This document shows positions 735 to 60,119 of a DNA stretch of 64,000 nt, one piece after another (position 1 is the stretch's first letter; the number at the start of each line of letters is the position of its first letter). The notes under the pieces are model-generated. The model was given only the letters and a program-made list of their open reading frames with translations, was not told the DNA's origin and did not search any database. Position numbers and translations under genes: made by a program. This stretch comes from Spirogloea muscicola. Taxonomy: Eukaryota > Streptophyta > Zygnematophyceae > Spirogloeales > Spirogloeaceae. The stretch spans positions 480,171 through 544,170 of the forward strand of contig WELB01000032.1 of assembly GCA_009602725.1 (NCBI GenBank), given 5' to 3'.

Positions 735-1075
735 CTAGTATCCCCGAGTGAGCACATGCATATCTGACATGCTAGTAGAGGGCGATGGCTGTGATCGGCC
801 AGCCCAGGAAAAAGGAATGGGTCTCAAGCTGTGAGAAGCCAGCGTAGGAGCAAAGATGGAGGTCCACAGAAAGGACGCCAACATTCCTTTTACAAAAGAA
901 AGCGCCTCCATACACAGAGAACGTCGTCTGCACATGGAGTTAGAGGCCAAATACGAGCGTTACGAATCCTGGTAACGGGGTAATAAGCTGGCTAAGGGGT
1001 TAGGAAGATTTCGTGTATTTGAAATAGACGAAGGCCAAAATGGCCAAGGGGGTCGCTATTACCCACGAGTGAGCA
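735..1075 (-). repeat. LINE-family 3' end fragment
   Basis: On the minus strand the frame closes with the peptide M-S-D-M-H-V-L-T-R-G-Y and a TAG at 735-737. This is the terminal signature shared by the retroelement copies in this window. Positions 789-812 carry the GGCCAGCCC half of the family stem-loop. A second partial terminus (V-L-T-R-G) lies near 1050-1070, so two broken copies may abut. Upstream RT sequence is absent. Confidence 0.6.
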
Positions 1076-1288
1076 CCGTACATAGCCGACAAAGGCGCCC
1101 AAAGGCGCCCCCCTGGTCCACAGACTGGTCCCCTGTCTGCCTAGCCTGTGGCTCCGTCATAGAACACCTGTATGCATCTGGCTGGCTTTTTACAGCCGAT
1201 TTTAATGATAAATAGCAGCCGCAGGCTTTGTCCCCAGAGGCGCCCCCCTTAGGGCGCGCCTTAGGGCACGCTCTGCGCCTCGCCGCCC

Positions 1289-4200
1289 ATGCTGCGGCCG
1301 CTGCTGCGGCTGGCCGCCCCCGTGCCGCGCGCCGCAGCGGCGCTCGCNGCCGCCCAGGGCCTCGTGCGAGCGCCCGGACGGCGGGAGGCGCTGCTGCGGT
1401 CCTGCAATGGGCCGCCGGGAAGCCGGGCTCGCCTGCGACCCCTCGGTGGCAGTGGCTGGCTTGCCGACGGCCCTGACAAGGGCACCGCTATCCCAGGGCC
1501 GCCGCAGCAGGCCGCGGGTCAGGTGAGCGATGCTCCGACTCGCGACCGTCAAGTGACCGTCAAATGCCACGCGTGGACATAGCTCTAGGCTGCCAGTGGG
1601 AGACTACTGCCGCGCTGGCCGCGCTTCCCATCAATTGGCCAGCTTCGGCGGCGGACTCACAAGCCCCCCTTACATACACTGTCCACCTTCTTCGTGTCTT
1701 CAGCTCACTGAGGCCTAGCTCCGTGTTTGCAGCTCACTAAGACCTATGAGGCGCTAACCGAGTACCTGCCTCCTTTCTGGGCGCAGCCACTGTCCCGAGG
1801 TAGTCTTGCACCTGCAGCCGGCGGAGCTGCGGCCGGAGTTGGAGGCACGGGCAGTGCCACTGCCCAGGCCACTGCCAAGAGGAAAAAGCGCGGCCAGCCG
1901 CTGCTGCATCCTGTCTTCCTCACCGTGGCTGCCCTCAGTACAGCAGCAACTCTCTGGATTCTGGGAGATGAAACTCACAAGGAGGACTCGAGCAGTCCGC
2001 TGAGCTTAGCAGCCATCGAGGCGCTGCTCAAGCGGCTGCTGCATAACGTTATGGAGGGCGCGAGCACAACATTGACTCGTGCCACAGAGGGCCTTCAAGC
2101 CGCATCTGTGCTCTGTCGCAGCATCGCCTCAATCGTCCTGTCAGGTTTGCAAAAGCATATTCTGGTGTGACAGCTGAGTAGCTCAGTTGGTGACCTTACT
2201 TGGTAGTGCAGATGCTCAACGGTTCTGGTTACAGAGCTGGAAAGACGACAGATCAAGGACAGCATGCTGAGCACCCTGCTCTATGTAGCAGCAGAGCTTC
2301 TAAGATTGCTCCAAGCATGTCATAGACGCATGTATGAAAGTCTGCCTGATTCTGCACAGATGTCCCATTACTCCTTGCAGTTGAAACAGACATCGCGTAT
2401 CCAGATAGGCTTGACATAAAGTAATCACGCTCAGGAGCTTATAACACAAGTGTGTCCTGGACAGAGAGGGCGAGGCAAGGGGCCAAGGGAGAGGACTGGT
2501 GGGCACCTGCAGTTGCCGCCCTTGTGGCCGACTTTGTTGCTAATGAGAGAAGGCGACGGATTCTTGCTGGAGATGAGAAAGTTCTGGATTGGCTGCTCCA
2601 CCAGGTGGCGGAAGGGCATCAACTGACCTCCCGAGAGGGTGGGAGGGCTCTGGCTCTCATGCTCAGAGACCCCCACAGCATGGCCATGGTGTTCAACCAC
2701 AGGGGAGCAGTGCCTTGTCTCCTCCAGTATGCATCGTCTCTGGACCAGCCTGACCTGGAGAAGGTACTCATTTCTCCATTGCTAACTATTGGATGAATGC
2801 TAAGAAGGACATGCCATGGGAGTTTATCTTCTTTGTCAATTTTCCAACTTCCATTGGCGCAGGATCAAGCTAGCTAAAAAACTCAACCGTATTGACAAGG
2901 TGATGTTGGTCGCCAGTTGTCTGTCAGGCCTTGCAAGGGGCGTAATGCACAGCTTGTGTGAAGATTGACAGGGCTGCAGTAACCATGCTTTACCAAAACC
3001 CCTCATCTCCCTTCTGCATGATGTGCAGATCAAAACTAGTTCAAGAAAGCACGGAGTCAGAGCATCAAATGACCAGCTCGTATCGGCCATCATGGACCTG
3101 GTTACATCGAGCTCGACCGAGCTTGAGAATACAAATGACTCTGTGCCCAGACTGTTGGAAGAGGCATGTGTGGGTGATATCGCAGCTGCTTTGAGAATAG
3201 TGAAGGAAGGGGGCTTGGAAACAGAGAGTACTGAACCCCAGAATGCTGGCCTTCTCACATCTTGGAGCCCACAGGCCGATACTAGCACGTCAGCAGGTGT
3301 AGCCAAGTCAGCAGAAGAGTTGCTGCAACAGGCGGAGCCAAAGGCTGTGAAGCCGGCGCCAATGATGAAGAGGTCAAGTGCCGTGAGACGCCTTACCGCA
3401 GCAGAAGGGGTTGAGTCCTCTCAGCGGCGAAATGAGCTCTTGAAATGGGAGGGCTACCAAACCCCTGGGCAGCTGCCAGAGGACAGCGATGAGCCTGACG
3501 AGCAGAGTGGCCTTTGGGACGACCTGACGGGGACTTCGGTTGCAGTGCTGCTTGCAGCATGGGCACTGGCAGCATGGGCGAAGGTGGGAGTTTGCTCTTC
3601 CCTCCCAGTGCTTCACTGAGATGGCCAAAAGTCTGTGTCCCCTTACCTGTGAAATGCTGTACCTCACCTTTCCTTCACTGTTGGCAACCTTTTGCATGGA
3701 CTCTGCATGGTCTTCTGCCTACGGTGATGCTAAGTAGCTACATGAAATCGACAAAAATTGAAAGTGGCTGAAATACCACCACAAGAAGTGAAACAAGATG
3801 AGCAGAGCTTAAACGTACAAGCCTCGCTTACAACAATGAGACCTGATGTCCTTCCATAGTTGCCTGGTCATATGGAGCCTTACAAATGTGAATCAAGTTG
3901 TAGCACTGGGCTTATAACTGAGGAAGGCAAGGCAATTTGGACCAGGCATGGAGAAGGACGTCGTTCATTGTCTGTATCAGTGTTTGCTGTATGATTGCTG
4001 TCTTGCTTGTCAGGAAGTGTGCACGTTATGTTGGACAAGTTGCACGCTGATCTTGCTCAGCAGGAACTAATAGAAGTTGTACTTGTGCCTTACCAGCGGT
4101 CAAGCAAGAACAGGACTAAGATTGTGGAGCTGGATGAGAGTGGACTGGCAGTGATGGCCGGAATCTTAGCCCCGGAGCGCAGCGTGCGGTTTCATGCCAC

Positions 4201-8303: not shown

Positions 8304-9542
8304 GTTGCCAAAGGGAGGCCTCAATTGCGCATGGCGGCCCCGAAGTGGCGATGACCTTGCTGGCCCACTTCAAGGTGCATGCTTCTATAGCACATGAGCT
8401 TTGATGTGTAGCATCGTCCTGCTATTGAGCATGTTGCACAGTGCTACTGACCACATTGGTGCAATCTGGCCTTTTCACAAGTTAAGCAGATTCTTACTCC
8501 CAGAAAGAACCTATCAAGCTGCGTTCACGATCAATTAGCCATAACACAACTTGATAAGTCAATTCATTACTCAGCATGATGGTGGCTTTTCTACAGGTTG
8601 AAGTTTTGTGGTTGGGACACACTGGTGTTCGTGGACTTAACAGTACCATATTTGTCAAGAGCTATGATAGCCTGGCTGGGAGAGGGTAAAATGAGGCTAT
8701 ACGCCTACCAGTTTGCAAGTGTTCTGTGATAGCCTTTCAAGCTCACTTCAGAGTCCTGGACATTGAGGGACCACAGGATTCGATGGTGTACCGTGTGTAA
8801 CAATGTTACGAGTAATGATGTAGCTTATGCATCTTCACCATAGTCAAAGCTCTGATCTGTCAGCAACCTGACATTCATCAAGCGATACTTCATTTCTAGC
8901 ACAAGAACGTCGCTGTCCATGGCTTGGCAGTCATAGTTGTGGTGGAAATGAAGTATTGCTGGACATACATCACTATTAAGATGATGAATCAGGCCAGCCA
9001 GAGGATTCACGGCACCATCACATTGTCCTATCAACCACTGCATTTTTGGGATGCAAGTCAATGACATGGGGATAGACGGTTACAACATGTTGGTCTGATG
9101 CCAGGGCGTGTATGCAGGAGCTTCAGGAGTTGTTGAAGACGAATAATACACAGTAATATCTATCTCTTGAGGAAAGAAGATAGGCATCGAAGAGAGAAGT
9201 GGCACTCCCAATGGGGGCAAGGGCTGTGAAGACAGGCATCTAAGAGGTGGCTGACAGGAGCTCTTGTGCAAGTATAGGTATAGGTTTTGGGTCGGTGGGC
9301 CTCTCTTCACCAGTACGGACATGTTACTCTACTATCAGTCGCTGATCCACCAGTGTGCATATTGATCCGCACCGCAGCTAATTCTTCATTCGGAGGACAA
9401 GTTTCTTGAGAAGGCTCTACATTGACAAAGCTCTGCTTTGATAGAAGTGCTCTCGGTTGTTTAAACACACAAGTAGTGCGCTCCTTGTCACACCTCGGTT
9501 TGGTTCCACTGATTGTGTGCAATTTCATCTCAGACAAGCTAT
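8304..9542. other. Intergenic, mostly empty
   Basis: No convincing exon is visible on either strand. A short piece at 9196-9225 matches the retroelement 3' segment seen at 26842 and 52507 (AGTGGCACTCCCAATGGGGG, then GGCTGTGA). Confidence 0.45.
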
Positions 9543-11842: not shown

Positions 11843-13336
11843 GTCTGACATGGTATTTGGAGCTATTAGGTTGACGGAGTTGAGATGGCACAAGTATCGT
11901 CTTGTGGGTTTATGGGGCTATATCCACTGTGCGTGGATGTCATGTCCACAAATATTCACGCGCCTCTGTTTGGTTGTTATAGACCCATTTGCAGATGCAA
12001 GTTGAGGGTTGGAGCTGAGTGTTTCCTCCTTTCTCCTGAGACATTTCTATAAGGATTACTTGATCAATCTGCAATGAATGCAGCATGTGTACGTATGCAC
12101 AGCTTATATAAGGAGGTCTCAGAAATATGAGCCAAATGATATTGCTCCAAGTAGCATATGGCTTACTGATCTGGCATGATGTCCTTGGAGCCAAGCTCTA
12201 GCTACTTGAAGTAGTCGAGTCGAGTCGATCCGGAACTGCACCAGAATGTATTATGGTTCAAGGTGGGACCTGTGATAATATGTGAGGGTAGACAGTTCTC
12301 TCTGTATACACGCAAAAGTGCCAGGGTCTGGGTATCTGATGCTCACCCTGGAGTGCTAGCAACTCCATGAAACATTGAATATCCAGGCATGTTTTCCCTC
12401 ACAGCTTTGACCACTCTGCCGTGGAGGCCGCCAAGGCAGCACTCGTGAGAGAGCTCGTCTACTTACCAGAATGACACGAGGCTTGGTTGCTTCGTTACAG
12501 GTGGAAGCCCCTGCGGAGGAGCTTGTGAATTGATGTTCCGGAAGAAAACGCAGGTGGCCACTCCAGTTGGAAGGAACACTGATGCCGAGTTTGGGTGGAG
12601 AACAAGCATTGTCAACTGGAGGACTGGAGCATAGTGTGCAACACTGAGCTGGCCATCACATGAATATGGGACACTCTGGTGTTCTTACACAGGGATAGAA
12701 GATAGAGAAGTTCCTTCGATGTGACCATTGGCTGGGAAGGGCCAGCCCATAAGCATAGACAACAACACTCAATGCGACTGGAAAGTCTAAATCATCAGGC
12801 AGAGAAAGTGACCACCAGGGCTGGCTGGTCAGCAGCTACAACTGGGGAAATCCAGCAGCCGAGGTGGTTAGATAATAGCCAGCCGGAGGAGTGGGCGGTA
12901 GCAGCTTTTCCAGAAGGCCGTCAGAATGGGGAGAAGCTCTTCCTCATGGGGCTCTGAAAGGCCAGTCCAAAGCAGTAGCCGTATCGAACTGGAGCGAAGA
13001 AAGCTCCCTTGTCTGGGACAAGCCGACCAGACCGGGGGAGGTGGAGATGTGAAACGGCGGACGGAACGGCGACGACGAGGGGAGCGCAGCGCCGTCGCGC
13101 CCCAACGGATTGGCGGAAGATGCCCCGCGGGAGGAGGGGGGGAGGGCCCCCCCCCGCCGGGCGCCGGGGCGGAGATCCTGTGGCCGCCAGCCGCCCGCGG
13201 GGCCCGCCGGGCGACCCCGCCGCCGCTGGTTCCCGGGCAGGCCCTGGCTACCAATGGCCGCACGGTCCCGCGACCGCCGCACGATACCCCCGCGGACGGC
13301 CGCGATGCGCCACCGCCGGCCCGCTGATGCGGCGGG
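11843..13336. other. Intergenic with weak repeat traces
   Basis: No gene is recognised. Short inverted repeats at 12726-12748 and 12950-12972 (GGCTG...GGCCAGCCC type) resemble the retroelement stem-loop. Positions 13040-13330 are very GC-rich and open in several frames without protein character. They may be part of the 5' region of the transketolase locus. Confidence 0.4.
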
Positions 13337-13500: not shown

Positions 13501-13560
13501 CGGGCCTCTCGGCCCTTCCGGACCTTGCCCGTTCCCTTGGGCTGGCCTCCCACAGCCGTT
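13501..13560 (+). repeat. Retroelement 3'-tail fragment at transketolase 5' end
   Basis: The words CCTTCCGGACCTTGCCCGTT and GGGCTGGCCTCCCACAGCC match the family 3' tail (CTTCAGACCTTGTCCATT and GGGCTGGCCTCTCCCAGCC at 58491-58532). The piece lies only about 45 bases before the first transketolase-like residues, so codons read through it are probably not native protein. Confidence 0.55.
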
Positions 13561-13603
13561 GCTTTAGATTGGAAGGGCTGTTGCTCCGCGGTTTGCGTCA
13601 GCN

Positions 13604-16600
13604 CGGCCAAGGGCAGCGGCCTCGGCTCCTTCCATGGCCTCCGCCGCGCGTCCCCCGCGGCCGCCGCTAAGGCCCGCGCTGCCGGCCGCGCCAGGCCGGC
13701 CTGCGCCGCCAGGATCTCCAACACGGCGACCGTCGAGTCCAAGCCCAAGGCTGACACCAAGGTCACCGAGCTCGCTATCAACACCATCCGCTTCCTCGCC
13801 ATCGACGCCGTGGAGAAGGCCAAGTCCGGTCACCCGGGCCTGCCTATGGGCTGCGCGCCCATGGCGTACGTCCTGTTCGACGAGTTCATGCGATTCAACC
13901 CCAAGAACCCCTACTACTTCAACAGGGATCGCTTTGTTCTCTCTGCCGGCCACGGGTGCATGCTCCAGTACGCGCTGCTTCACATCTACGGCTACGATAG
14001 CGTCCAGGTAATGTCCTATTTGTACAACCTGCGCTGGCCATACTGAGCTTGGGCATACACTCCTTGAGGGTGAACTGGATGGAGGTCTTCTCTGGCGGGC
14101 TCTCTCCCTCGGTCTTATGATGCAACAAATGATGACGTACATCAATGTCGACCTATGTGTGCCAGGAAGAGGATCTGAAGCAGTTCCGGCAGTGGGGATC
14201 TCGGACTCCTGGCCACCCTGAGAACTTTGAGACGCCTGGTGTGGAGGTCACAACAGGTGAGGATACGCTGGATAATGACATCCCACACGTACCTACTCAG
14301 GTGGTTGACGCTTGTTCATACATAAGTCACAGTGACTATAGATGGATCTTTCAGGCAGGTCCATGGCAGACAGTGAAGGGCTCATTTCTCCTCCTCACAA
14401 GCTCACGGGAGATACCAATGGTCGGTGTGCAGGTCCTCTTGGCCAGGGCATTGCCAATGCCGTTGGACTTGCTTTGGCTGAGAAGCATCTTGCTGCCCGC
14501 TTCAACAAGCCTGATGCTGAGATTGTCGACCATTACACGTGCGCCTTTCGTGTGTAGCACTTTCGTGGATTTTGAAACCTTCTCTTTGTTTGACAATCGA
14601 GCTGGTGTAGGCAGCACCTGTGCGCAGGCGAAGGTGCACAAGAAATTGCATTTGGACCATCACCAGGTCTGCTGACGACTGTCAGGTTGCACGCGCAGGT
14701 ATTGCATTCTTGGAGACGGCTGCAACATGGAGGGCATATCCAATGAGGCAGCCTCGCTCGCCGGCCATTGGGGCCTTGGGAAGCTCATTGCCCTATATGA
14801 TGACAACCATATATCAATTGATGGCAACACAGACATTGCATTCACAGAGGACGTGCAGACTCGCTTCGACGCCCTTGGCTGGCACACCATCCACGTCAAG
14901 GATGGCAACAATGACCTGGACGCTCTCCGTGCAGCAATTGAGGAGGCCAAGAGTGTGACCGACAAGCCCTCCATGCTCAAGGTGGCTGATTGCTATGGAG
15001 GACGGATCCACTACGTGAAACATGCCTCATACCATACTAGGACCCTGAGCCTGACTGAGATTAAATGGGGAGCAATATCGTCAAGGCTGAGGATATGTGC
15101 TTGTGATCTATTATCAACATGCTTGCTGACTGGGCTGTATATACTTGCTCTGCAGATTACTACTACCATTGGCTATGGTTCCCCCAATAAGGCCAACTCC
15201 TATGCTGCTCACGGTGCTGCGCTTGGTGAGAAGGAGGTTGCTGCCACCCGTGAGAATTTGGGCTGGCCTTACGAGCCCTTCGTTGTGCCGGAGGAAGTCA
15301 AGAGGTACGACAGAGGTGCCAGGCAAGCTGGAGCAAGCCGAAGTTGCTGATTCTTGTGTTGGTATTTACTTCATCCTCAGCTCATTGCAGCTTTTGCATG
15401 TATGCAGCCACACCCTGCGCAAGCTGGAGGAGGGCCCTGCTCTTGAGAACGAGTGGAACTCAAAGTTTGCAGAGTACGAGAAGAAATACGCAGAAGAGGC
15501 TGCAGAATTCAAGCAGCTCATCAGCCTTGAGTTGCCTGCTGGGTGGGCTGATGCTCTTCCGGTGCGTGGTGCATACCTGCCTGGTCTTACTGTAGTCTTG
15601 AGCTCAAGGTGTGACTTGCTCAAAACTTATACATATCATTGTCTTGCTGAGATATTGGAAGCCCTAGGTTGGCAGCATCTAGTGTAAGCTCTGACACTTC
15701 TGTCCACCTTCTCCCTGCAGTCCTACACCCCAGACAGCGCTGGCGACTCCACTCGGAATCTGTCTCAGGTCATGCTTAACGCCCTCGTCAAGGTCTTACC
15801 CGGCCTCATTGGTGGGTCAGCCGATCTTGCATCCTCCAACATGACTCTGCTCAAAGCTTACGGCAACTTCCAGAAGGATACCCCGGCAGAGAGGAACCTA
15901 CGGTTCGGCGTGAGGGAGCACGCCATGGGAGCCATCTGCAATGGCATTCAGCAGCACCTGTCTGGACTTATCCCATATTGCGCCACTTTCTTCATCTTCA
16001 CGGACTACATGCGCAATGCAATTCGTATCAGTGCTCTTTCCGAGACTGGTGTTATCTATGTCATGACCCATGATTCAATTGGCCTTGGAGAGGACGGCCC
16101 AACTCATCAGGTAAGGCAGGCTGCCTAGTTGCTTAAGATAATCCGCTACCTTCATGGTAGTCTGACAGATGTATGGTAGTGGAGAAGTGGAGACATGGAC
16201 AGATTTTACTACCTTAAGTAAAATGGTGCAGATTTGAGATGTTTCTCATGATAGTGCAGGTATGGTTGCAGTTGTCACATCAAAGGTCTGTGGCACAAAG
16301 TAGGTCTGTGAAGACTGCCCTTTACATGCCTACTAAAACATTGTATCTGCGGTGTTGATGCAGCCCATTGAACACCTTGCATCATTCAGGGCCATGCCCA
16401 ACATTCTTATGATGAGGCCTGCTGATGGCAATGAGACTGCTGGCGCTTACAAAATTGCTGTGGAGAACCGCAAGCGGCCGTCTGTCCTTGCCCTGTCTCG
16501 CCAGAAGTTGCCGCAGCTCTCTGGCACATCCATAGATTCTGTGGCAAAGGGTGCTTACACCATCAGGTACTATAGGTTTCTTGGTGGTCTCTGTGGCTTG

Positions 16601-18545: not shown

Positions 18546-18835
18546 CGTGCCTTTGTACTTGGCCATTTGGCCTTCGTTTGTTTCAAATACACGAAATCTT
18601 TTTCCCCAAACCTAACAGGAAGGGCTCGCCCATTGAGGATAGGGGCTGGAAAAGCCAGCCCAGAAATGAAGGGACAAAGTACGAGAAGGGGGCCAGGGGA
18701 AGCGCTAAGTAAAACAAGCACAAGGAGGAACAAAGCAGCTACGTATTATTCAGTAACCCCTGCTAAGCAGCCTCAGGTCAGAGAAGCTAGGCTCCTGGAA
18801 GTTGGGTCCCCTGGCCAGAGCTAGAGGCCCCCCCC
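18546..18835 (-). repeat. LINE 3' end fragment, second sub-family
   Basis: Positions 18618-18830 are, in reverse complement, nearly the same as 59925-60115. They share GGGCTCGCCCATTGAGGATA, the stem GGCTGGAAAAGCCAGCC, and the coding end S-F-S-D-L-R-L-L-S-R-G-Y-stop (minus strand, stop at 18750). Confidence 0.75.
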
Positions 18836-23749: not shown

Positions 23750-24660
23750 GGCCCCCACGCCAGGCGCCCGCGCGGCGGCGGCGGCTGGGCCTGGCCGGCC
23801 GGGCGCCGGCGGGCAGCTCCTGCTGTGCTTTCCGTCACCCCATCCTCCTGTTGCATTTCTCCCTTTCCTTTTTACGCGCGAGATCACTCTCCATCACTAG
23901 TGGTCGCTCATGAAGCTCTGATCAGCAAGTCCAGATCGGTATCACCAGAGGGGCGGAAAAGCGTCGCCTGTCGGGACCCGGAGGCAGCCGCCAAGGCGCG
24001 GCCTGCACGCAAGTGGGACGGCAAATGCTTCTCACGCGCAGTTCTTAATGGCTTGCTTTGGTCCCCCTTTCACTTTGTGGGCTGGCTTTTCCCAGTCCCT
24101 ATCCTTTTTCCTCCTCCTTTCATTCCCTGCGCACCGGCTCGCCTTCTCGCCGTGTCGGCGGTGTCTCGCCGCCATCCCCCCCTCCTCCCGCATCATTGGC
24201 CTCCCAGGTCCTCCCTCCCCCCGCAGCCGCGGGCTACTGGGGGCGCCGGCGCGCCGCCACGTGGCAGCTGTGGTGGGGTGCCGGCAGCCCAAACCCCCCT
24301 CCGGGGCAGCTCCTGCAACTTGTGCTCTCCGGCCCCTCCGGTCCTCGTCCACTCTTTCTTTCCCACTCTTTCCCACGCTTTCCGGGCTGGCTTTCCGCAG
24401 CCGTTAGAAGAGCCACTTCACTTTCCACAGCCCTCGGCCCAATCAAATGAGCATACTTCATCACAGCCATTGCCTTACTGTGGATAAGCTGTTCTGTTGT
24501 TTCCCCAATCCCCCTGAAAAAGATAGTACGCGGCGGCTGATATCAAGTGGCGGCTGTGAATGCCAGCCGAGTGCATAAAGAGGAATTAATCTATACTACG
24601 CAGAGCCGCAGGCTGGGCAACAGGGCCCTCTCTTTTTGCTGGGCTGGCCTCTTCCAGTCA
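23750..24660 (+). repeat. GC-rich flank with retroelement 3'-tail pieces
   Basis: Stem-loop words recur at 24077 (GGGCTGGCTTTTCCCAGTCC), 24379 (GGGCTGGCTTTCCGCAGCCG) and 24637 (GGGCTGGCCTCTTCCAGTC). The intervening sequence is open in several frames but has no protein character. At least three truncated copies seem to be nested here, next to the presumed promoter of the DUF1442 gene. Confidence 0.5.
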
Positions 24661-26735: not shown

Positions 26736-26835
26736 GGACACATAAGCAAGCGCGGCCAGATTAACTGGTGGCTGGGAGAGGCCAGCCCAAAAGAATGGAC
26801 AAGGTCTGAAGGAGCCGGAGTGCTAAGGACACATA
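26736..26835 (-). mobile_element. Minimal LINE 3'-tail insertion with target duplication
   Basis: About 80 bases of the element 3' tail (CAAGCGCGGCCAGATTAACT through GGAGTGCTAAGGAC) lie between direct repeats GGACACATA at 26736-26744 and 26827-26835. Part of the right repeat overlaps element sequence (GGAC), so the duplication may be shorter than nine bases. The host sequence on both sides is another repeat. Confidence 0.65.
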
Positions 26836-26995
26836 GAAGTGGCACTCCCAATGGGGGCAAGGGCTGTGAGAAGCCAACCCGAAAAAGAATTGACAAAGGT
26901 TCGAAGGGGCCAAATGATGGAGGGTCCTAAAATGCGTTAAGGGGCCTGAAGATGCTGTCAGAACGGGCACAAGGAATGAACGAGGTCCGGAAATA
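26836..26995 (-). repeat. Retroelement 3' fragment
   Basis: It starts GAAGTGGCACTCCCAATGGG, followed by the stem GGGCTGTGAGAAGCC and TTGACAAAGGTTCGAAGGGG. The same segment occurs at 52505-52590 and, reversed, at 28405-28490. Confidence 0.7.
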
Positions 26996-27260
26996 AGCAA
27001 GCGCGGCCAGATTAACTGGTGGCTGAGAGAGGCCTGCCCAAAGGAATGGACAAGGTCTGAAGGAGCCGGAGTGCTAAGGACTGAGACAGCAGCAAGCGAA
27101 CTCTCAGTAACCTCTAGTCAGTAGATGCAAATCTGAATAGCTAGCAGGCGGAAAGACGTCGCCCTTACGGAAGCCGGAGGCCGCCGCCAGAGCGCGGCCC
27201 GCGCGCAAGTGGACCGCGAAAGCTAGGGACCGCTGCAACCGGAAAACGAACCGCGCTTCC
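26996..27260 (-). pseudogene. LINE 3' end with C-terminal coding remnant
   Basis: The minus strand encodes the C-terminal region ending P-A-S-Y-S-D-L-H-L-L-T-R-G-Y with a stop at 27104. Its 3' tail extends to 26996 on the left. It forms an inverted pair with the plus-strand copy at 27568-27830, with about 310 bases between the arms. Confidence 0.75.
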
Positions 27261-27550
27261 ACATTGACTGGTGGCTGTGAGAGGCCAGCCCAAAGTGAAG
27301 GACAAGGTCGGGTGGGGGCCGGATGGCGCAAAAAGAAGTGGCTCTCACAATGTGGGCAAGGGCTGTTAAAAGCCAGCCCGAAAAGAATTGGCAAAGGTTC
27401 GAAGGGCAAAACGCAAGAGACTTAGGGCTAAGACGGCTGCAAGGAAGAAATGAAGAAAAGAAAAAGGAAATAGCAGGGGGGTTCTAAGTAACCTCGAGTC
27501 AGTAAGTGCAAGAAATGGACAGCTCCAAAAGAGCAAGCGCGGCTAGATTA
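27261..27550 (-). repeat. Retroelement tail fragments
   Basis: Two further stem-loop copies (GGTGGCTGTGAGAGGCCAGCC at 27270 and GGGCTGTTAAAAGCCAGCCC at 27369) and the AAGTGGCTCTCACAATGTGG segment are present. No coding remains. Confidence 0.6.
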
Positions 27551-27567: not shown

Positions 27568-27838
27568 GGATGCGCCTGGCCGTCTCTTTGCAGCGGTCCC
27601 TAGCTTTTGCGGTCCACTTGCGCGCAGGCCGCGCTCTGGCGGCGGCCTCCGGCTTCCGTCAGGGCGACGTCTTTCCGCCTGCTAGCTATTCAGATTTGCA
27701 TCTACTGACGAGAGGTTACTGAGAGTTCGCTTACTGCTGTCTCAGTCCTTAGCACTCCAACTCCTTCAGACCTTGTCCATTCGTTCGCTGGCCTCTCCCA
27801 GCCACCAGTCAATCTGGCCGCGCTTGCTCTGATTAACT
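27568..27838 (+). pseudogene. LINE 3' end with C-terminal coding remnant
   Basis: It encodes R-M-R-L-A-V-S-L-Q-R-S-L-A-F-A-V-H-L-R-A-type sequence through A-S-Y-S-D-L-H-L-L-T-R-G-Y with a stop at 27720-27722. A tail with stem-loop follows at 27786-27808. It ends CTGGCCGCGCTTGCTCT and runs straight into an inverted piece of the same tail (GATTAACTGGTGGCTGAGAG). Confidence 0.75.
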
Positions 27839-28262: not shown

Positions 28263-28800
28263 GCTTCCCTCTGCATCGTTTCTGTGTTCTGCAGTGGTTT
28301 GTAGTGTAGTCCTTTTTCCGGCTCCTCTTTCTTTGGCCTTGGACATTGTCCATTCTCTTTTATTCTGCCATAGCCTCTTCAGGCCCCGCAGTCGCTGCTT
28401 AGCTCGTAGTTTGGCCCCTTCAAACCTTGTCAACTCCTTTCGGGCTGGCTTCTCACAGCCCTTGCCCCCATTGGGAGAGCCACTTCTTCTTTTTGGGCTG
28501 GCTTTGCCAGCCCCTCTTCTCTATGGGCGCGCACTTCTTCTTTCCCTGCAGCGAGCTACTCAGACCTGATGTTACTCACTCGTGGGTACTGAGCTTCCCT
28601 CTGCTTCGTCTGTGTTCTGTAGTATTTTGTAGTGTAGTCCTTTATCCGGCTCCTCTTTCTTTGGCTTTGGACATTGTCATTCTTTTTTGGGCTGGCTTTG
28701 CCAGCCCCTCTTCTCTATGGGCGCGCACTTCTCTGGAAGAGGCCAGCCCAAAGCAATGGACAAGGTCTGAAGGAGCCGGAGTGCTAAGGACAGCTCCGAA
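28263..28800 (+). repeat. Stacked LINE 3' tails
   Basis: Three tails follow one another. The first runs to about 28490 with the stem GGGCTGGCTTCTCACAGCCC. The second has the stem GGGCTGGCTTTGCCAGCCC at 28497 and a second coding end, S-D-L-M-L-L-T-R-G-Y-stop, at about 28561-28592. The third repeats that stem at 28688. An inverted tail piece begins near 28738. The segments from about 28540 and about 28190 are near copies of each other, so a local tandem duplication or repeated insertion is likely. Confidence 0.7.
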
Positions 28801-37040: not shown

Positions 37041-37414
37041 CACCTCGCGCTGCGGGAGGAGCTGAGCGGCCAGCAGCCCGACCAGCCACAGCCGACAAGG
37101 CGGCACATGGCCGACGCGAAGCCCGTCACGCCAGCCTTCTGAGCAAGCGCAGCTCCCAAGCAGCCCCAAGGCGGCGGTGGCGGCGCGGCGGTGGCGCTCA
37201 GCTCAAGTGCAGAGGTCGTGGCGGTACAAGGTGCGAAGCGAAAGCGTGCTTGCTCGGCAGCCAAGTTGCTCCAACCCATACATCTCGCGTGTGCCTGACG
37301 GACCGCCGTAATCGGCTGAGCCCTCTCGTGCTAAGGGCCGTCTAGCACCGTCGAGGCCCAATGCTGGAAGGTACACTTTCGCTGCCGCTTGTCCCGCTGC
37401 CAGCCTGAGGCACT

Positions 37415-40309: not shown

Positions 40310-40400
40310 CGCATGCGATGAAAGAAGTGTTCGCCCATTGAGGATAGGGGCTGGGAACGGCCAGCCCAAGAAGAATGAATGATGAGAGGAGGCCAAAGCA
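40310..40400 (-). repeat. Retroelement 3' tail fragment
   Basis: TTCGCCCATTGAGGATAGGG and the stem GGGCTGGGAACGGCCAGCCC match the sub-family at 18628 and 60075. Confidence 0.65.
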
Positions 40401-41214: not shown

Positions 41215-41620
41215 TGAAAGCAAGCGCGGCCAGATTAACTGGTGGCTGGGAGAGGCCAGCCCAAAAGAATGGACAAGGTCTGAAGGAGTCGGAGTGCTAA
41301 GGACTGAGACAGCAGTAAGCGAACTCTCAGTAACCTCTCGTTAGTAGATGCAAATCTGAATAGCTAGCAGGCGGAAAGAAAATTTACGTGTATTTGAAAC
41401 AAACGAAGGCCACATGGCCAAGTACAAAGGCAAGCACATCTTAAGACCTACATAACCTACAGTAGATTGACCCGCTCAGAAACCACGGGTCAAAACATAA
41501 AGGTCGCTAACCGATGCCTGGATACTAGATGGCAGATACGAAGCCCTTCTGCCACCAACTAGAGCTCGCCCAGCTTTCTGGTGCAAAGCATTAGCCTGAG
41601 CACGCTGCAAACAGGCCGAA
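41215..41620 (-). repeat. Two fused LINE 3' ends
   Basis: The tail and C-terminal remnant of one copy (41215-41378) stops abruptly at GGCGGAAAG. It is joined to a second copy in the same orientation beginning near 41379 (GTATTTGAAACAAACGAAGG, TTGGCC, TACAAAGGCA). The second copy ends in S-D-L-Y-V-L-T-R-G-F-stop, with the stop at 41476. Confidence 0.7.
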
Positions 41621-41814
41621 ACTTGTCGTCGCAACAACGACAAATAAGCAGCTGGTAAGCCCATCTCAGCCGGGAACACATCTGCATGTCGTGTGTAGCC
41701 TAGATTGGCTATGTTTTGAAGGAGAGTAAGGAAACGAGGACCTAAGCAGCCGAAGATGTCGATTGCCGCTGGCAAGAGCTGATCACATCGGGGGTAATCG
41801 GAGTAAGAGAGCAA
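41476..41814 (-). pseudogene. LINE ORF2 C-terminal domain, 5'-truncated
   Basis: The minus-strand frame of about 112 codons contains D-Y-P-R-C-D-Q-L-L-P-A-A-I-D-I-F-G-C-L-G, then L-T-L-L-Q-N-I-A-N-L-G, and ends in the shared terminus. It parallels 27920-28262 but is a different sub-family. Confidence 0.7.
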
Positions 41815-42021
41815 GCGCGGCCAGATTAACTGGTGGCTGGGAGAGGCCAGCCCAAAAGAATGGACAAGGAGTAGTGCTGCAACTTTCTCTGTTCAGCACT
41901 GCCCACTGCGTGGCCAGCGATGTGTGACGATGCTGGACCTTTATAGGCCTCCGTAACCACAATATCGACCAAAGCCCTTGGTCCTCCACCAGGTTGCACG
42001 CCCACAGTGTCAAGTGTGCGG
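41811..42021 (-). repeat. Short LINE tail copy and unknown sequence
   Basis: A tail of about 58 bases (AGCAAGCGCGGCCAGATTAA to ATGGACAAGG) lies at 41811-41868. GGAGTA flanks both sides, a weak candidate for a short target duplication. What follows to 42021 is not recognised. Confidence 0.55.
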
Positions 42022-42270
42022 CGGAAAGACGTCGCCCTGACGGAAGCCGGAGGCCGCCGCCAGAGCGCGGCCTGCGCGCAAGTGGACCGCAAAAGCTAGG
42101 GACCTTGTCCATTCTTTTGGGCTGGCCTCTCCCAGCCACCAGTTAATCTGGCCGCGCTTGCTTCTTTAAAAGCTAGGGACCGCTGCAAAGAGACGGCCAG
42201 GCGCATCCGGAAAACTTGGGCGAGGGACCCGGCGACATGGAAGCCAGTCTGCTCGCCCTGCTGCCCGTGG
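42022..42270 (-). pseudogene. LINE C-terminal remnant hosting a nested insertion
   Basis: Minus-strand coding of the C-terminal region (GCGGAAAGACGTCGCCCTGA, GGAAGCCGGAGGCCGCCGCC) is interrupted at 42104 and resumes at 42168. If the insert and one target copy are removed, the two halves continue each other. Confidence 0.75.
42091..42181 (+). mobile_element. 63-base LINE 3'-tail insertion with 14-base target duplication
   Basis: Direct repeats AAAAGCTAGGGACC at 42091-42104 and 42168-42181 are perfect. Between them (42105-42167) lies only the element's 3' tail: TTGTCCATTCTTTTGGGCTG, the stem-loop, CTGGCCGCGCTTGCTTCTTT. The insert is opposite in orientation to its host copy. This is the signature of target-primed reverse transcription with extreme 5' truncation. 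Confidence 0.85.
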
Positions 42271-42600
42271 CGGCGGGCAATTCATTAACGTCAAAGTTGG
42301 TTCACGTTGGTCTGGTATGCTACAAACAGCGCTGCCAAATCGACTGATGGCTATGAGAGGCCAGCCCAAAGGAACGGACAAGGTCTGAAAGCTCCGGATA
42401 TGGAAAACAGGCATGATATTGTGGAATAGACGTCGCGGTGCTCTGGTGGAAGCTCACAAGAGAGCACCACAAAGCTCGCATGCGCACGGCGCGCCGTCCT
42501 CTTCGCAGCCAAGCAACCACGGGTGTGGTGTTGCAGCAGCAAGTTGCTTGGTGGCTAGAAAGAACAGCGCTTAGAGGTGTTGGCTTGAAGCCCATCCTTA
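42271..42600 (-). repeat. Further retroelement tail debris
   Basis: The stem TGGCTATGAGAGGCCAGCCC at 42346 and GGACAAGGTCTGAAAGCTCC mark another degraded tail. The rest up to the TRM1 5' region is not recognised. Confidence 0.5.
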
Positions 42601-47280: not shown

Positions 47281-48180
47281 CTCGCTGGTTGCGGCGGTGC
47301 GTAAGGGGGCCATGGTAATCTGGGGACTTCGACACACTGGCCTGCTTCCCAAGACCAATCCATCCGCCACAGTAATATCAGGCACATTATGCAGCAGATG
47401 TTGAACGATGGTCGTGAAAGCGAATGCGAGCAAGTGTTCTGGGGCGCAGTCCTCGTGGCCAGAAGAGCGTGCATTGAGTGACGGAGGCCCAGAGCAGCTA
47501 GTCACAAAGCCAAGCATATCAACCGGTGTGAATCACGTTCTTCGTAGCCGCCGCTCAGCAACCAAGGGTGAGCACGTAGAGGTCACGATGCAATGCCGGA
47601 AGTGCGGACGGCAAGATCCAAGCCCCGCTGCCATCGATGGTTGACGTCCAGCTTCCTGGTGGTAAAAGGCCACAAGCTCTCTGGCGCAATGCAAAGCTTG
47701 AGCCAGAAGAAGAGAGAAGGCGCGCGGCGTGCATGAATTGGGTGGCTGGGTCAAGCCAATATATTGTCCAGGCAAAAGCTAGAGCAAAGTTGGGCTACAT
47801 GATTCGAAGCCCTATCCTAAGGTGGCTAAGGTAACAGTGTCACATTAGTATCCAGGGGTGAGCACACACGATCTCGACAGGCTAACTTGGGGAGCCGGAG
47901 CACCGCCACGAGAGAAGGCGCGCGGTGCGCATGACATAGAAAGTAAGGCCAATTCTAGCCATACAAATGTCCTGTTAAGGGTAATGAGCTAGCTAAGGGG
48001 GACACTAAGAAAGCCACGAAAGCCTGTGGCTTGACTTAAAGCCCGCCCGCCCAGCACGCTGATGAATAGCCAGAGCTTGCAGACGATTCAATACACGGAG
48101 TAGGCGCGCGGTTTGCATGAAATGAAAGGGTGGTTAATCTGTGGCAATCGAAAATATAGCCAATATACTGTTCAGGCAAA
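47281..48180 (-). repeat. Mixed retroelement debris upstream of monooxygenase 1
   Basis: Minus-strand R-D-L-Y-V-L-T-L at 47562-47590 is a degraded copy of the family terminus. Three copies of a GGCGCGCGG...GCATGA motif (47712, 47927, 48108) follow. Two of them (47752 and 48158) are followed by AGCCAATATA-T-GT-CAGGCAAAAGC-like sequence. Confidence 0.55.
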
Positions 48181-48416: not shown

Positions 48417-51400
48417 ATGGCGCCCGCGGCGCGGCAGCCCGTGCGCGTCGTGGTCGTCGGCGCGGGCCCGTCAGGCCTGCTCTTCGCGCACTACCTCCTG
48501 CGCCACGGCGCCGGCCGCTTCCAGCTCCAGCTCTTCGAGAAGGGCCCCGATTTGACGTCGCCCGCCCCCGAGCGGCCCGGCTATGACAAGAGGTGCGGAT
48601 GCTGCGCTATCGGCTTCACGGACCCCGTCGCAGCAGGAGTCTGCTGCGATTGAGAAGGCTGCTGCGGGCTGGCCGACGGCCTGCGCACACTGTGGTGTGC
48701 ACGACTTGCCATCTATCCATTGGACAGCTGAATTTCAACGACGCAGCACCTAACAGGTACTCCATGGGCATCAACTTGCGAGGCCAGCTCTGCTTGAAGA
48801 CAATTCCGGGTGTTTTTGAGAAGGTAAGGATTCGCGCCTTTCTGATAAGCTATCTGCGGTTGGATTGCTTGAAGCTGGCAGATGGCCATAGTTGACCAAG
48901 GCACATAACGGCTTGCAACAGGCATTCTAGTGCGTGATCGGTGCGTGCAGGCGCTTGTCTTGATCCCAATTGAGGTGGACGTCAGCAGGTGAAGGAGAAT
49001 GCCGTATTGGCAGAGCATGGAGCCGCCATCTTCATCGGGGGCAAGCCAGTGACCATCACGCCCGATGTGAGAAAGGTACATAATCATTGCCTCGTCACCA
49101 TACTGTCAGGGTGCACTGCAGCCCTCTTTCGGCTGGAGTTCTCCTCCTCGGCGGACAGTACAAGCGGAGCTGTCTGGAGCTCAAAGGCATCTTGTGCATC
49201 TGAAAGTCCACAGCCACCATACTGTTGTAATCTCTTTCCTTCTCACGGTCTGCTTGAGAGAGTCAGGCACTAATGCACCTGTCGCAAGGATGAATACATG
49301 TTTCTGAGTACGGCACCAATTCTTGGTGCCAGACCACACCTTCCCTTATGGTGGACAGGGATACTCTTTGCAAGGCCCTCCTTGAAGAACTTCTCGCCAG
49401 ATATACGGATTCTGAGTTGTTCACTATTCGGTACGAGTCAACCTGCACGAGTATCGACTTGGCAGAACAAACCATCTCTTTCTCAGCAACAGGCGCTCAG
49501 GCGGAGGGGGCAAGCATGGAAGCGAAAGATGGAGCTGTGCGTGATAGCAGTTGCACTACACCTTCTGCTTCTGGAGAGGTTATTCATTATGATTTACTGG
49601 TGAGACCAGCCTTTCAGTAAACAAGTCTATCAAGTGACAGAGAGACACAGAGAGATACTTTGCAGCTACATGATTGGATTTGTTAGCTGCTCCAAAGTAG
49701 TCGCTCCTGAGTTCAAAACCTGCAGAAATGTACACGTGGTAGGTTGCATAATGTGTCTACGCTTGTGCAATTGTATGACGTGACCTTGTTCTGGACTCCG
49801 TCTTCCCTCCCTCCTGTATCCAGGTTGGAGCTGATGGTGTTCGCTCAGCAGTGAGGCTTGCATTTATCCAGCAGAGTCGGAACTTTGCAGTAGAGATGCG
49901 AGACATTTTCAATGATTGGAGTGTTGTCAGAATACCTGCTCCATCAGGCTTTCCATTGGGCACCTTGCATGTCTTTCCGAAGGTATGGTTTTCTCCCTTC
50001 TGCTGCCATTTGAGCCTGGTGTTCATTCGCAAGATGGCTGAGAATGACAAAGGCTTCTTCTTTGCAGTGCTGGTCAGTGTTCCCGCTCGGTATGCATTTG
50101 CTTAGTTTGCTTGCTCATGGTCAGACTTTGTGGGACAATGTTTCATCCACAAATGCTCAGTGCTCATCTGCAATGTATTTAGGTACCACGGGCAGCAAAT
50201 TCAGGCGCCATGGGTCTGCCCTTACCAACTGGCGATATGTGCTTCCTCATTGGATGGGCCTCCAATGATCCCCCCATGAACCTGCTGACATTGAAGTCAC
50301 CAGAAGAGGCCAAAGAGTGGTTCGATGAGAGAATTCCTTACCTGAAAATCGGGAAACAGGCAGCTTGGAGCGTTGTCACACAAACCAAGAAGACCACAAT
50401 GCAGGTCCTTTCAGTTTCACCTTTATACCATGTATACAGTTCTGCCCTGTCAATGCACCTTTCATGCCAGGAGTATCTGGTGAGCAAGTCAATACAGATT
50501 TTCTGCAGGTCAAATGTGGTCGCTACCATGCCACACCTGGGCAGGCAGTGCTTATTGGCGATGCTGCCCACGCAACGTCCCCGGCCATAGGCCAGGGCTG
50601 CAATTCGTCCCTCGTGGATGCTGTGGTCTTAGCGAGGATGCTGACTGGGAAGGATGTGGATGAAACCAACCGAGTACCCCAAGCAGAAGATCCAACTCCA
50701 GCAGCTTGGGAGCCGCCTGACATACTGGCTGCCCTGCCTAAGATTTTGGAACGCTACTCTGCTCTTCAGGTCAGCTTTAGTTGTTTGAACAAGAAAGAGA
50801 TAGCAGTCACGACCAGGGCGGTTTCTAGCAGATCATATAGCGCAAGTTGTATCATTACCAGTCCTGCCAAGCACAAACATACGCTATTCTAATGCGTATG
50901 TCTCTGCTGTGATTTAGGTGAAAGAAGGTCACGCCGTAGTTGACATGTCATGGAGCGGTGCAGCCTTGGACAAAAGTTTGCAGGTAATGCAGAGTCCAGT
51001 GTGTCTTCATTGTGAGGTCGCACAGGATGATGCAGCTGCAAGCTGCTTGCCAATGATTCCGAAGCATGGATCCTAGCCACTTGTTTCATAGGGTGTTGTC
51101 AGCAGTCAGAACATCTCGATACACAAGACGCGCACATGAAGGGGGACCACCAGGTGTAGAGGTATCTCAGGTATATCATGCTGGAAGCCAAGGAAGATCA
51201 TCAAGCTGGAGTGCCGCAGGAGCTGACAATGTTTGCTTGCCAAAGCAGATGCAGCAACAGTTGATGTCGGCGGCGCGGAGCATACTCTACAAATACCTGC
51301 CATGGGCATTAACGCGCCCGCTCTTTGACCTTTGCGGCTCAACCTTGACGCCATACAGCAAGATCTACGAGATGTACAAAAGCGAGGTAGACAAGATTGG

Positions 51401-52320: not shown

Positions 52321-52900
52321 TGCGCTGTTGGAACAAGCATTGCACGGCGGGACGGCGGCGTTAAATTTGGCGGGACGGAGACGTGGGCCCAGGGAGCGCG
52401 CGTGCCCCGACCGCGCTCTTTGCGCCAAGCTCGACCCGGCCGTCTTCGAGTGCGGGGGTTCGGAGGGAAACCCGGCGGCTCAGGGCGCGCCCAGCACGCT
52501 GGTGAAGAAGTGGCTCTCCCAATGGGGGCAAGGGCTGTGAGAAGCCAGCCCGAAAAGAATTGACAAGGTTCGAAGGGGCCAAACTACGAGCTAAGCAGCG
52601 ACTGCGGGGCCTGAAGAGGCTATGGCAGAACGGGGGAGGATGGACCACTTAGTAGTTACGAGTGAGGAGCCTCACATCCGACAGACTAGCTGCCGGTAAA
52701 CTATCCCCCTGACGAAAGCCGGAGGCCGCAGCGAGAGCACGGCCAGCACGCAGATGCAAGGCGTGGGCACTGGCCGCCATCAGCAGCAACTGGACTCGCA
52801 CAGCCATTGCTGTCAATTTGGAAGAGTTGTTTCTTCTGCTGCCAGCTTGAGAAGAGAAGTCGCGGTGGGCATGGTTCAAAGGGTGGCCTTTCAAGCACTA
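52321..52900 (-). repeat. LINE debris between the paralogues
   Basis: 52505-52630 is, in reverse complement, almost the same as 28370-28490 over about 120 bases. Next to it a minus-strand coding remnant reads A-L-H-L-R-A-G-R-A-L-A-A-A-S-G-F-R-Q-G-D and ends L-S-D-V-R-L-L-T-R-N-Y-stop, with the stop at 52649. A fragment at 52360-52500 is GC-rich and of unclear origin. Confidence 0.7.
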
Positions 52901-57591: not shown

Positions 57592-58556
57592 GTGTCACTG
57601 GGCCGTGAGAGCCTCCCTCCCTCCCTCCCTCCCTCCCTCACCCGCTGCATCGGCCGGGCATGCTACTTGCAGCGGACAGTCGCCCAAATGGGCATGGTGG
57701 GCGAGCTCTACAAGGAATTCGACAACTCCCTGCTTCAGTCCCTGGCATCCCTTCTACAATCTTCCTCTTTCCCCTCCGCTTCATCTGCCCTCCAGGCTTC
57801 CCTCCCCACCCGCATGGGCGGCCTTGGCTGCCGGTCGTTGGAGCAGACGGCGCAAGCAGCCTTCCTGGGCTGCTGGCACCAGATCGCCTCTATGCTTCCC
57901 ATGCGCTTCCCTTGCCTCCACGATCCCGTACGCAACGTGGAGGAAGGCTCCTTACCCTTCCAAGCGGATCTGAGGAGCATCCGTGACTCGGCAATCGGCT
58001 CTTTCCCCTCTATACAACCCCTACTCACGCCATTCTCCGCCCTCGCCCAAGCTTCGGATAGAGGGGCACAATCCAGACTGGTTACGGCAGTNGCTGCATC
58101 CCACTTCTCTGGCAGCGGATCACCCCGTGGGCGACGAGTGTGTCCCACTCGCCGTCGACGTACACGGAGCCTTTGGCACAAATGGCTTGACCTGCTTCAC
58201 CACCTTGCGTGCCGAGCAGTGGCCCGCCGCCACTGGCAGCAGGGCGAGCAGCCTGGCTTCAATGTCGCCGGTTCCCTCGCTCAGGTCTTCCGGATGCGCT
58301 TGGCCATCACTTTGCAGCGGTCCCTTGCCTTTGCGGTTCACTTGCGCACAGGCCGCGCTTTGGCGGCGGCCTCCAGCTTCCGTCAGGGCGACGTCTGTCC
58401 GCCTGCTATTTATTCCGACTTGCACCTACTGACTAGAGGTTACTGAGAGTCCCCTTTGCTGCTGTCTTAGTACTTCGCACTCCGGCTCCTTCAGACCTTG
58501 TCCATTCCTTTGGGCTGGCCTCTCCCAGCCACCAGTCAATCTGGCCGCGTTTTTCT
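57592..58556 (+). pseudogene. LINE-like retroelement, 3' half of ORF2 plus tail
   Basis: This is the longest copy in the window. Within the frame opened near 57606 it reads Q-A-S-L-P-T-R-M-G-G-L-G-C-R-S-L, then A-A-F-L-G-C-W, the post-catalytic part of a non-LTR reverse transcriptase. After an undetermined base at 58092 the reading frame moves, with A-D-H-P-V-G-D-E-C-V-P-L-A-V-D-V-H-G in a second frame. It then returns for F-N-V-A-G-S-L-A-Q-V-F-R-M-R-L and S-D-L-H-L-L-T-R-G-Y-stop (58444-58446). The tail has CTTCAGACCTTGTCC, the stem GGGCTGGCCTCTCCCAGCC (58514-58532) and the CTGGCCGCG end. It begins at a CCCT microsatellite. The catalytic Y-x-D-D part is missing. Confidence 0.8.
57612..57640 (+). 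repeat. (CCCT)n microsatellite
   Basis: About seven CCCT units lie at the left end of the retroelement half-copy, followed by CACCCGCTGCATC. Confidence 0.85.
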
Positions 58557-58569: not shown

Positions 58570-58935
58570 GCGAAAACAGGACAGGTCCCCAAGGCCCCCA
58601 TCGGCACTTCCGGCCCTCCTTCCCACCTCCGCCATCCTTCCTGCCACTGCTGCTGCCTCCCTCTCCTGTAGCTGCTTAGTAGCTGCTTAGTTTCTTTTTG
58701 TACTTGTTTTTCTTAGTGCTTTCCCTTGCCCCTTCTCGTCCTTTGTTCATTCCTTTTTGGGCTGGCATTTCCCAGCCCCTATTCTCAATGGGCGAGCCCT
58801 TCTTCTCTCCTCTAGCAGCTCCAGAAGCAAACGCAGGCCAGGTCGACAGAGGCCCCATCGGCACTTCCGGCCCTCCTCCCACCACCCCCCCCAGTCCCTC
58901 TTGCCACTGTTGCTGCCCCTCTCCTCTTTGATCAG
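58570..58935 (+). repeat. Dispersed units of a ~110-base minisatellite and a LINE tail
   Basis: Units at 58575-58670 and 58808-58930 carry CCCATCGGCACTTCCGGCCC, GCCACTGCTGCTGC and CAGGCCAGGTCGAC. Between them, at 58680-58800, is a tail of the 60075 sub-family (stem GGGCTGGCATTTCCCAGCCC). Confidence 0.7.
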
Positions 58936-59689: not shown

Positions 59690-59880
59690 CGTTGAGCACC
59701 AGCTCCAGAAGCAGACGCAGGACAGGTCGACAAGATCCCAATCGGCAGTTTTGCCCCTCAATTCCCCACCCGCCATCCCTCCTGCCACTGCTGCTGCTCC
59801 ACTCCTCTAGCAGCTCCTGAAGCGGACGCAGGCCAGGTCGACAAGGCCGCCATCGGCTTTCGACCCCCCCGCGCGCTGCA
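59690..59880 (+). repeat. Minisatellite units (~110 bases)
   Basis: Two units share AGCAGCTCC-GAAGC-GACGCAGG and AGGTCGACAAG with the array at 60120-60600. Confidence 0.7.
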
Positions 59881-59919
59881 CCTGCGTGCGGCAGAGCCCT
59901 CGCTGCTGCCTCTGGCTCT

Positions 59920-60119
59920 GGCCAGGGGACCCACTTCCAGGAGCCTAGCTTCTCTGACCTGAGGCTGCTTAGCAGGGGTTACTGAGTAATATGTAGCTGC
60001 TTTGTTTCTTGCTGTGCTTGTTTTTCTTGGCGCTTCCCTTGGCCCCCTTCTCATACTTTGTTCCTTCTTTTCTGGGCTGGCTTTTCCAGCCCGTATCCTC
60101 AATGGGCGAGCCCTTTCTT
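59920..60119 (+). repeat. LINE 3' end fragment, second sub-family
   Basis: The coding end S-F-S-D-L-R-L-L-S-R-G-Y-stop (to 59985) is followed by a tail of about 90 bases and the stem GGGCTGGCTTTTCCAGCCC at 60077. It is the near-identical reverse partner of 18620-18830. Confidence 0.75.

Follow-up and report, generated by a model that had tools for sequence, protein, structure and literature searches.

Hairpin-bearing tails at the locus

The sequence examined was a 64-kb stretch of the Spirogloea muscicola genome (C32:480171-544170), here called the window; genome-wide counts refer to the 153.1-Mb assembly of 471 contigs. The window is crowded with 3' tails of long interspersed elements (LINEs) in which one short hairpin, GGCTGG..CCAGCC, recurs, and we consider it likely from the comparisons below that this hairpin forms the central part of a conserved, stringent-type 3' recognition tail of a large, probably restriction-like-endonuclease (RLE)-type LINE group of the green lineage. 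The exact pattern GGCTGG N(2-14) CCAGCC was found 12 times in the window against 0.31 expected, a number reached by none of 100 dinucleotide shuffles, and the looser pattern GGCTG N(4-12) CAGCC was found 22 times against 3.16 expected (0 of 100 shuffles). BLAST searches with five tail sequences returned 33 places of at least 26 bits, of which 25 had at least 35 bits; some of the weakest of these 25 may be chance matches. A preliminary description of this DNA had reported the hairpin in more than 20 retroelement tails, and both the number and the assignment were borne out: the tails of types A, M, R, and B come after a LINE stop codon. Each of the 14 hairpin positions named in it falls on a hairpin copy or no more than about 6 bases away from one; the copy at 42346 has an altered arm, GGCTA. 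Genome-wide, the 19-base sequence GGGCTGGCTTTGCCAGCCC had 836 and 885 exact copies on the two strands (1,721 in total; reversed control 0). With up to three mismatches, 7,070 and 7,126 matches were counted by strand (reversed control 4 and 4); because GGGCTGGCTTTGCCAGCCC and its own complement differ by only three bases, these strand counts overlap and correspond to about 7,100 places.

The tails share a layout: the stretch TTGTYCATTC leads into the hairpin GGGCTGGC..CAGCC, a weaker TGGnnGnGC block comes next, and a short, often C/T-rich terminus closes the tail. The hairpin was observed directly in the LINE 3' untranslated region (UTR), some 25-30 nt short of the 3' end, in the related families A, M, R, and B, for which an ORF (open reading frame) end was seen, and also in T-type tails. 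Tails of types A, M, R, and B terminate in GCGCTTGCT or CTT-type bases, without poly(A). Loops, spacers, and 3' ends vary between families.

LINE families and proteins

ORF ends were surveyed in the window and 91 further loci (92 sources, 363,283 bases) with the loose pattern SDLxxLxRG(Y/F/C)-stop, and up to 190 bases were inspected after each site. The pattern gave 71 distinct sites, all tail types together. The ORFs of the families end in SDLHLLTRGY-stop (A), SDLMLLTRGY-stop (M), and SDLRLLSRGY-stop (R), and the hairpin is mostly present after the stop codon, with some copies interrupted; X-type ORFs end in SDLYVLTRGY/F-stop, and rarer ends were also present among the 71 sites. The B-type end, SDVRLLTRNY-stop, was read by eye from upstream sequence and is missed by the loose SDL pattern; for T-type tails, no ORF end was established in the window and the 91 loci. 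The further loci were chosen by queries and not at random: L001-L008 were drawn by the M hairpin, L009-L038 by an RVT_1 search (almost without tails), L039-L068 with a 60-nt A-type query, and L080-L091 with a C-terminal query, so that A-type copies and lengths of at least 60 nt are over-represented. A tail was extracted only if its match spanned nearly the whole query, and all counts are per copy, the copies being related to one another.

The X-type protein P0002 is a 1,267-residue frame, measured from stop to stop, with RVT_1 at residues 554-752 (E 9.9e-19). In a Pfam scan admitting E values up to 1, the only other match in P0002 was a weak zf-C2HC_2, below its own cut-off; no apurinic/apyrimidinic (AP) endonuclease domain was found in it. 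Families A, M, R, and B presumably encode a reverse transcriptase (RT) as well, as their common C-termini and their relatives suggest. In an alignment read by eye, the A, M, R, and X proteins shared at their C-termini the arrangement R-x-D, 14 residues, D-(V/L/I)-V (R-x-x-D in X), with E in place of the first conserved D in one X copy. A KX2KY motif was read as KERKY in A, KELKY in R, and KLHKY in L091; X has KLRHY or KLQHY instead, and in the M copy the first K was lost by deletion. According to PMC5678591, RLE LINEs have KX2KY together with a variant of PD-(D/E)XK, KX2KY marking the place of the catalytic K. The four ligands of a cysteine/histidine knuckle are likewise conserved in A, M, R, and X, and their spacing, CX1CX11-12HX3C, tells against the assignment, since it is unlike the definition CX2-3CX7-8HX4C given for RLE LINEs in that paper. 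The C-terminal domain gave no Pfam match in four proteins and no sequence match in the PDB (one protein), so the RLE assignment is drawn from motif and position. In view of the misfit in knuckle spacing, and with the hairpin type read at its C-terminus, we class the hairpin-bearing group no further than as probable RLE-type LINEs.

The preliminary description had compared the hairpin with that of eel UnaL2. The analogy extends to function only: the C-termini carry RLE motifs, and the scan of P0002 showed no AP endonuclease domain.

Tails in the window

Bit scores in this section are those of the BLAST searches with the five tail sequences. An A-type LINE copy lies at 58118..58549 (+) and comprises the C-terminus SDLHLLTRGY-stop (stop codon 58444-58446) and the hairpin tail, with 88% identity to the reference copy. 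Its stop codon also closes the chimeric open frame P0001 (57589..58446, +; 285 residues), which had no Pfam match; residues 16-168 match X-type LINEs and the end is the A-type C-terminus, so that P0001 represents fused LINE remnants, part of one element being joined in frame to the other. Further A-type tails were found at 26745..26804 (-, 88.3 bits) and 26996..27055 (-, 79.7 bits), and older ones at 27253..27307 (-, 55.4 bits) and 42328..42383 (-, 56.8 bits). By BLAST, the tail at 27771..27828 (+) ends a truncated copy of about 278 nt with its start near 27553, that at 41219..41278 (-) belongs to a copy of about 161 nt, and that at 41810..41869 (-) is a tail-only copy of 60 nt. Another tail-only copy, of about 63 nt including the 3' TTCTTT, lies at 42105..42167 (+). 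Partial A-type matches were recorded at 28733..28765 (-, 41.1 bits), at 12729..12762 (-, 36.8 bits; hairpin arms exact and included in the exact-pattern count), and at 13523..13557 (+, 35.4 bits and the looser pattern), the last being weak, lying within the frame that holds a transketolase exon, and possibly due to chance.

R-type tails lie at 18620..18679 (-, 79.7 bits), 40325..40379 (-, 56.8 bits), 58741..58801 (+, 72.5 bits), and 60056..60115 (+, 82.5 bits; preceded by SDLRLLSRGY-stop), with a weak partial match at 24074..24105 (+, 36.8 bits). Beside and around the R-type tail at 60056..60115 runs a tandem array (59697-60605; about 4-5 units, each of about 111 nt), and a 37-nt repeat (about 5 units) occupies 60782-60970. 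B-type tails were found at 26837..26901 (-, 78.3 bits), 27336..27399 (-, 74.0 bits), 28423..28485 (+, 86.8 bits), and 52508..52570 (-; the ORF end upstream, SDVRLLTRNY-stop, was read by eye), and the 3' part of one at 9197..9229 (-, 46.8 bits). Two M-type tails follow closely on the third of these, one 5'-truncated (28487..28536, +, 71.1 bits) and one preceded by SDLMLLTRGY-stop (28669..28730, +, 78.3 bits; BLAST and ORF end). A T-type tail with the hairpin GGCTGGCCGATCACAGCC lies at 774..811 (-, 51.1 bits).

Conservation between families

Families were compared with one copy each and 200 shuffles. C-terminal amino acid identities were 95/147 (A-M), 93/151 (A-R), and 84/147 (M-R), that is, 57-65%. 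Fourfold-degenerate third positions agreed at chance level in A-M (12/42; chance 0.26) and in A-R (10/39; chance 0.29), and M and R are less diverged (17/38 against 0.26 by chance). The 3' UTR ahead of the tail was likewise close to its shuffled means (A-M 0.52, A-R 0.46, and M-R 0.60 against 0.49, 0.46, and 0.59). Identity within the hairpin was 0.84 in A-M, 0.84 in A-R, and 0.94 in M-R, above all 200 shuffles in each of the three pairs. A hairpin kept while synonymous sites turned over argues for a function, and its place suggests recognition by the LINE protein. On this point the preliminary proposal of a stringent-LINE cis-signal gains ground, the hairpin lying in the LINE 3' tail and being conserved between A and M or R; the compensatory changes that it had looked to were not seen, as set out below.

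The block after the hairpin was conserved in M-R only (0.77), the values for A-M (0.63) and A-R (0.57) falling within the shuffled range. The non-palindromic stretch before the hairpin was near its shuffled value in M-R (0.61 against 0.59).

Exchange of 3' ends between families by template switching or recombination, with no part played by selection, would be another way to a common tail. It could have happened here, given the dense nesting of LINE copies and the existence of at least one chimera (P0001); a recent swap would, however, have brought along loops, spacers, and 3' ends, which are family-specific, and the tail types pair with distinct C-termini (SDLHLL, SDLMLL, SDLRLL, and SDVRLL). 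We regard this explanation as very improbable.

Pairing, covariation, and folding

Two alignments were used. For the first, 142 of 158 references were kept and 16 (8 from A, 3 from B, and 5 from M) were dropped by hand, namely 15 rows closely resembling kept ones and the hairpin-less L086:174-215; the second consisted of 53 tails hand-picked from A, B, M, and R, with T excluded. The statement of the preliminary description that pairing is mostly kept is literally true, and it amounts to no excess over what the near-invariant arms give by themselves: among 837 cells of the 142 sequences (141 distinct), 88.3% pair, compared with 88.2% after shuffling. Broken hairpins are under-counted in such figures because the matches by which tails were found include the arms. 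Changes on both sides were confined to one of six pairs, the outermost (5 cells). RNAalifold returned no structure for the 142-sequence alignment, and for the 53 tails of four types it recovered only the hairpin, with five inner pairs, each unchanged in 48-53 of the 53 rows.

Several results weigh against recognition of a folded hairpin. The covariation just given is at the shuffled level, and none of the five pairs found by RNAalifold in the 53 tails shows a compensatory change. Among 76 distinct copies counted as young, with no more than 4 differences beyond the arms, 21 pairs were changed on one side and none on both; unmatched changes in one arm, named in the preliminary description as a sign against the hairpin, thus do occur. 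In folding, A and B do not surpass shuffled sequence (z -0.80 and -0.86, one copy each). The hairpin has been lost from one A-type tail (L086:174-215), and X-type tails have GGCC(A)..(T)GGCC and lack GGCTGG..CCAGCC. Finally, the non-palindromic stretch before the hairpin was conserved in A-M (0.83) and level with the best shuffle in A-R (0.78), so that the conserved thing could be sequence and not structure. A basal helix, TTGTCCAT/ATGGGCGA, suggested around the hairpin by single M and R folds, was unsupported across families and was rejected; its covariation in M and R was 85.0%, as after shuffling (85.0%), so that compensatory change beyond chance was found neither in the hairpin (142 and 53 tails) nor in this helix.

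Two of these tests are limited. Covariation has little power because the arms are nearly invariant, and one-arm changes are a weak sign, since a copy decays neutrally once it is inserted and most of those tested were less than full length. As neutral decay predicts, the rates of change in young copies were similar in the arms and in the rest of the tail for A (0.038 and 0.035) and M (0.038 and 0.046); the arms were slower in R (0.013 and 0.046) and B (0.008 and 0.033), with few copies in each.

The tail may therefore be kept as primary sequence, that is, as a protein-binding, RNA-processing, or 3'-end-formation signal in which the palindrome is incidental and the fold is not recognised. The near-invariant arms without covariation, the conserved stretch before the hairpin in A-M and A-R, and the folding of A and B would all suit such a signal. 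The arms, however, stand out from the rest of the tail: among all extracted A, M, R, and B copies, 44 of 1,359 cells of their ten bases deviate from the family sequence, compared with 715 of 6,997 cells elsewhere; M and R far surpass shuffled sequence in folding (z -4.30 and -3.62; T -2.10; one copy each); and X-type tails have a different hairpin near the 3' end. We judge the primary-sequence explanation to be unlikely, though one to be taken seriously, and note that conservation cannot by itself separate a folded hairpin from a conserved sequence.

Insertion, truncation, and tail-only copies

In type A, 82 distinct matches ran to the 3' end or stopped at most 14 bases short of it, and 63 of them had the complete 3' end; the lengths of copies with complete 3' ends ranged from 15 to 1,142 nt. 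Target-site duplications (TSDs) of at least 5 nt were present in 22 of 42 A-type insertions (at least 97% identity, at least 36 nt, 5' flank without N), compared with 8.0% of mismatched flank pairs. The clearest TSD flanks the copy at 42105-42167, with AAAAGCTAGGGACC (14 nt) at 42091-42104 and 42168-42181. Type A copies are ordinary LINE insertions with strong 5' truncation; given the common 3' end, the truncation, and the frequent TSDs, tail-only copies of this type need no explanation by short interspersed elements (SINEs).

The preliminary description had suggested that small tail-only copies spread as SINE-like parasites, which would make them a separate element mobilised in trans. A-type lengths do cluster at 58-62 nt (11 of the 63 complete 3' ends), a peak that is partly an artefact of the 60-nt query. 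A discrete 60-nt unit was rejected, the peak being unconfirmed by the genome counts: these fell from 891 to 724 across the six bases TTGTCC, without special loss there, from 2,068 to 1,410 across the next six bases upstream (CAGACC), and from 1,410 to 774 across the following six, subfamily differences confounding such stepwise counts. Upstream of 12 of the 41 B copies, nothing but LINE sequence, further tails, or unrelated DNA was recognised, with no repeated non-LINE body carrying the tail; and when overlap lengths upstream of B, T, M, and R tails were compared in the window and the 91 loci, no partner SINE was recognised. With A-type lengths spread over the whole range and no separate body in the 12 B copies, the suggestion was not upheld, and we hold a trans-mobilised SINE to be improbable. 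Upstream of a B-type tail in L070 (about 3120-3300), a stretch resembles the antisense 3' end of 18S rRNA, as judged by eye.

The hairpin might also serve, as DNA, as a preferred landing site, LINEs inserting into older LINE tails. Another tail was present 25 nt beyond the 3' end in 18 of 60 A-type insertions, compared with 9.3% of nearby positions (binomial p 1e-05), and at 8, 15, 40, and 80 nt in 11, 14, 13, and 14 of the 60. The excess is spread out, a tail at 80 nt being found in 14 of 60 on the 3' side and in 18 of 60 on the 5' side, and it therefore looks more like clustering than targeting. Self-targeting of hairpins was striking by eye in 30 loci, but in a strict test, in which a tail had to span the rejoined empty site, 5 of 42 sites qualified against 5.8% of 4,200 random nearby sites; it was rejected, and we give it little credence.

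Surrounding sequence

Host genes in the window comprise transketolase exons (13501-15687, +), a RAD5A-type UBA domain (36324-37202, -), and an FAD-binding, squalene-epoxidase-like exon (50329-50892, +). The best PDB relatives of the transketolase were 1itz, then 8ci0 (named chloroplastic), then 5nd5; 1itz is the maize and 5nd5 the Chlamydomonas enzyme. By these likenesses, the genes of the window look plant-lineage. Scans of the window with Rfam (gathering thresholds) and for tRNA returned nothing. Two 69-nt repeats, 90% identical, lie at 638-706 and 47910-47978, the former within the 3' UTR of another type of LINE, whose ORF ends in SDMHVLTRGY-stop; the GGCTGG hairpin was not seen in the 190 bases after this ORF end. 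Open frames of 7,286, 7,091, and 4,073 residues, far longer than one element, were met at RT/LINE matches (G000:C119:327124, C76:570958, and C108:125427); N-filled gaps were read as open frame in L084 and could explain some overlong frames.

Comparison with known elements and proposed mechanism

In RLE-type LINEs (R2 and relatives), as in the present group, a cysteine/histidine knuckle and RLE motifs at the C-terminus come after the RT; the present group is dispersed, with no single target found, and differs in its knuckle spacing from the definition in PMC5678591. According to PMC4176376, R2 is among the LINEs that require the 3' UTR for retrotransposition, and the protein of a zebrafish L2 LINE binds its own stem-loop. 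The L2-clade stringent LINEs (eel UnaL2, zebrafish ZfL2-1/2-2) share with the present group a short stem-loop in the 3' tail, for which protein recognition is known there (PMC4176376). They differ in carrying an endonuclease domain before the RT, absent from P0002 by the Pfam scan, whereas the present group has RLE motifs after it; and each L2 LINE recognises its cognate stem-loop, whereas here the arm sequence is common to families and recognition is predicted.

Among elements of the green lineage, the plant L1 lineage of LINE1-1_ZM and its SINEs carries a hairpin in a 3' end of about 50 nt; it belongs to the L1 clade, and compensatory changes and SINE partners, neither of which was found here, are reported for it (PMC3747384). 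Zepp and ZeppL of green algae form nested clusters of mostly 5'-truncated 3' ends, as at our locus (PMC8226300), but Zepp is a member of the L1 clade whose 3' repeats are poly(A) (PMC3747384), whereas RLE motifs mark the present elements, and their ends are without poly(A). A further green-lineage LINE is RandI/Dualen of Chlamydomonas, its tails common with those of SINEs (SINEX), one SINE having (CTTT)n ends (PMC3747384). The endonucleases differ: none of the AP type was found in P0002, and Dualen has two endonucleases. In the open-licence literature, judged mostly from the papers as listed, no RLE-only LINEs with such a common hairpin were found in green algae.

Under the preferred reading, that of a stringent-type recognition tail, the LINE protein would bind the hairpin tail on its own RNA, the RLE domain would nick the target DNA, and the RT would start at the 3' end of the RNA on the nicked DNA (target-primed reverse transcription). 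Synthesis would usually end early and leave 5'-truncated copies, down to the tail alone. That the hairpin is bound by protein and needed for mobility is what we infer from its place and conservation.

A single hairpin might serve as a password across families, some of which (A against M and R) are so diverged that their synonymous sites match at chance level only; members may then accept each other's tails, any active member mobilising the tails of the whole group. We put this forward tentatively and think it rather doubtful; if true, it would help to explain the thousands of copies. In the literature examined, stem-loop recognition by a LINE protein was worked out on animal LINEs. The tails described here form a green-lineage series with invariant arms, varying loops, and long-ORF relatives, with which it could be asked whether stem or loop gives specificity, and this natural series could also show whether families cross-mobilise.

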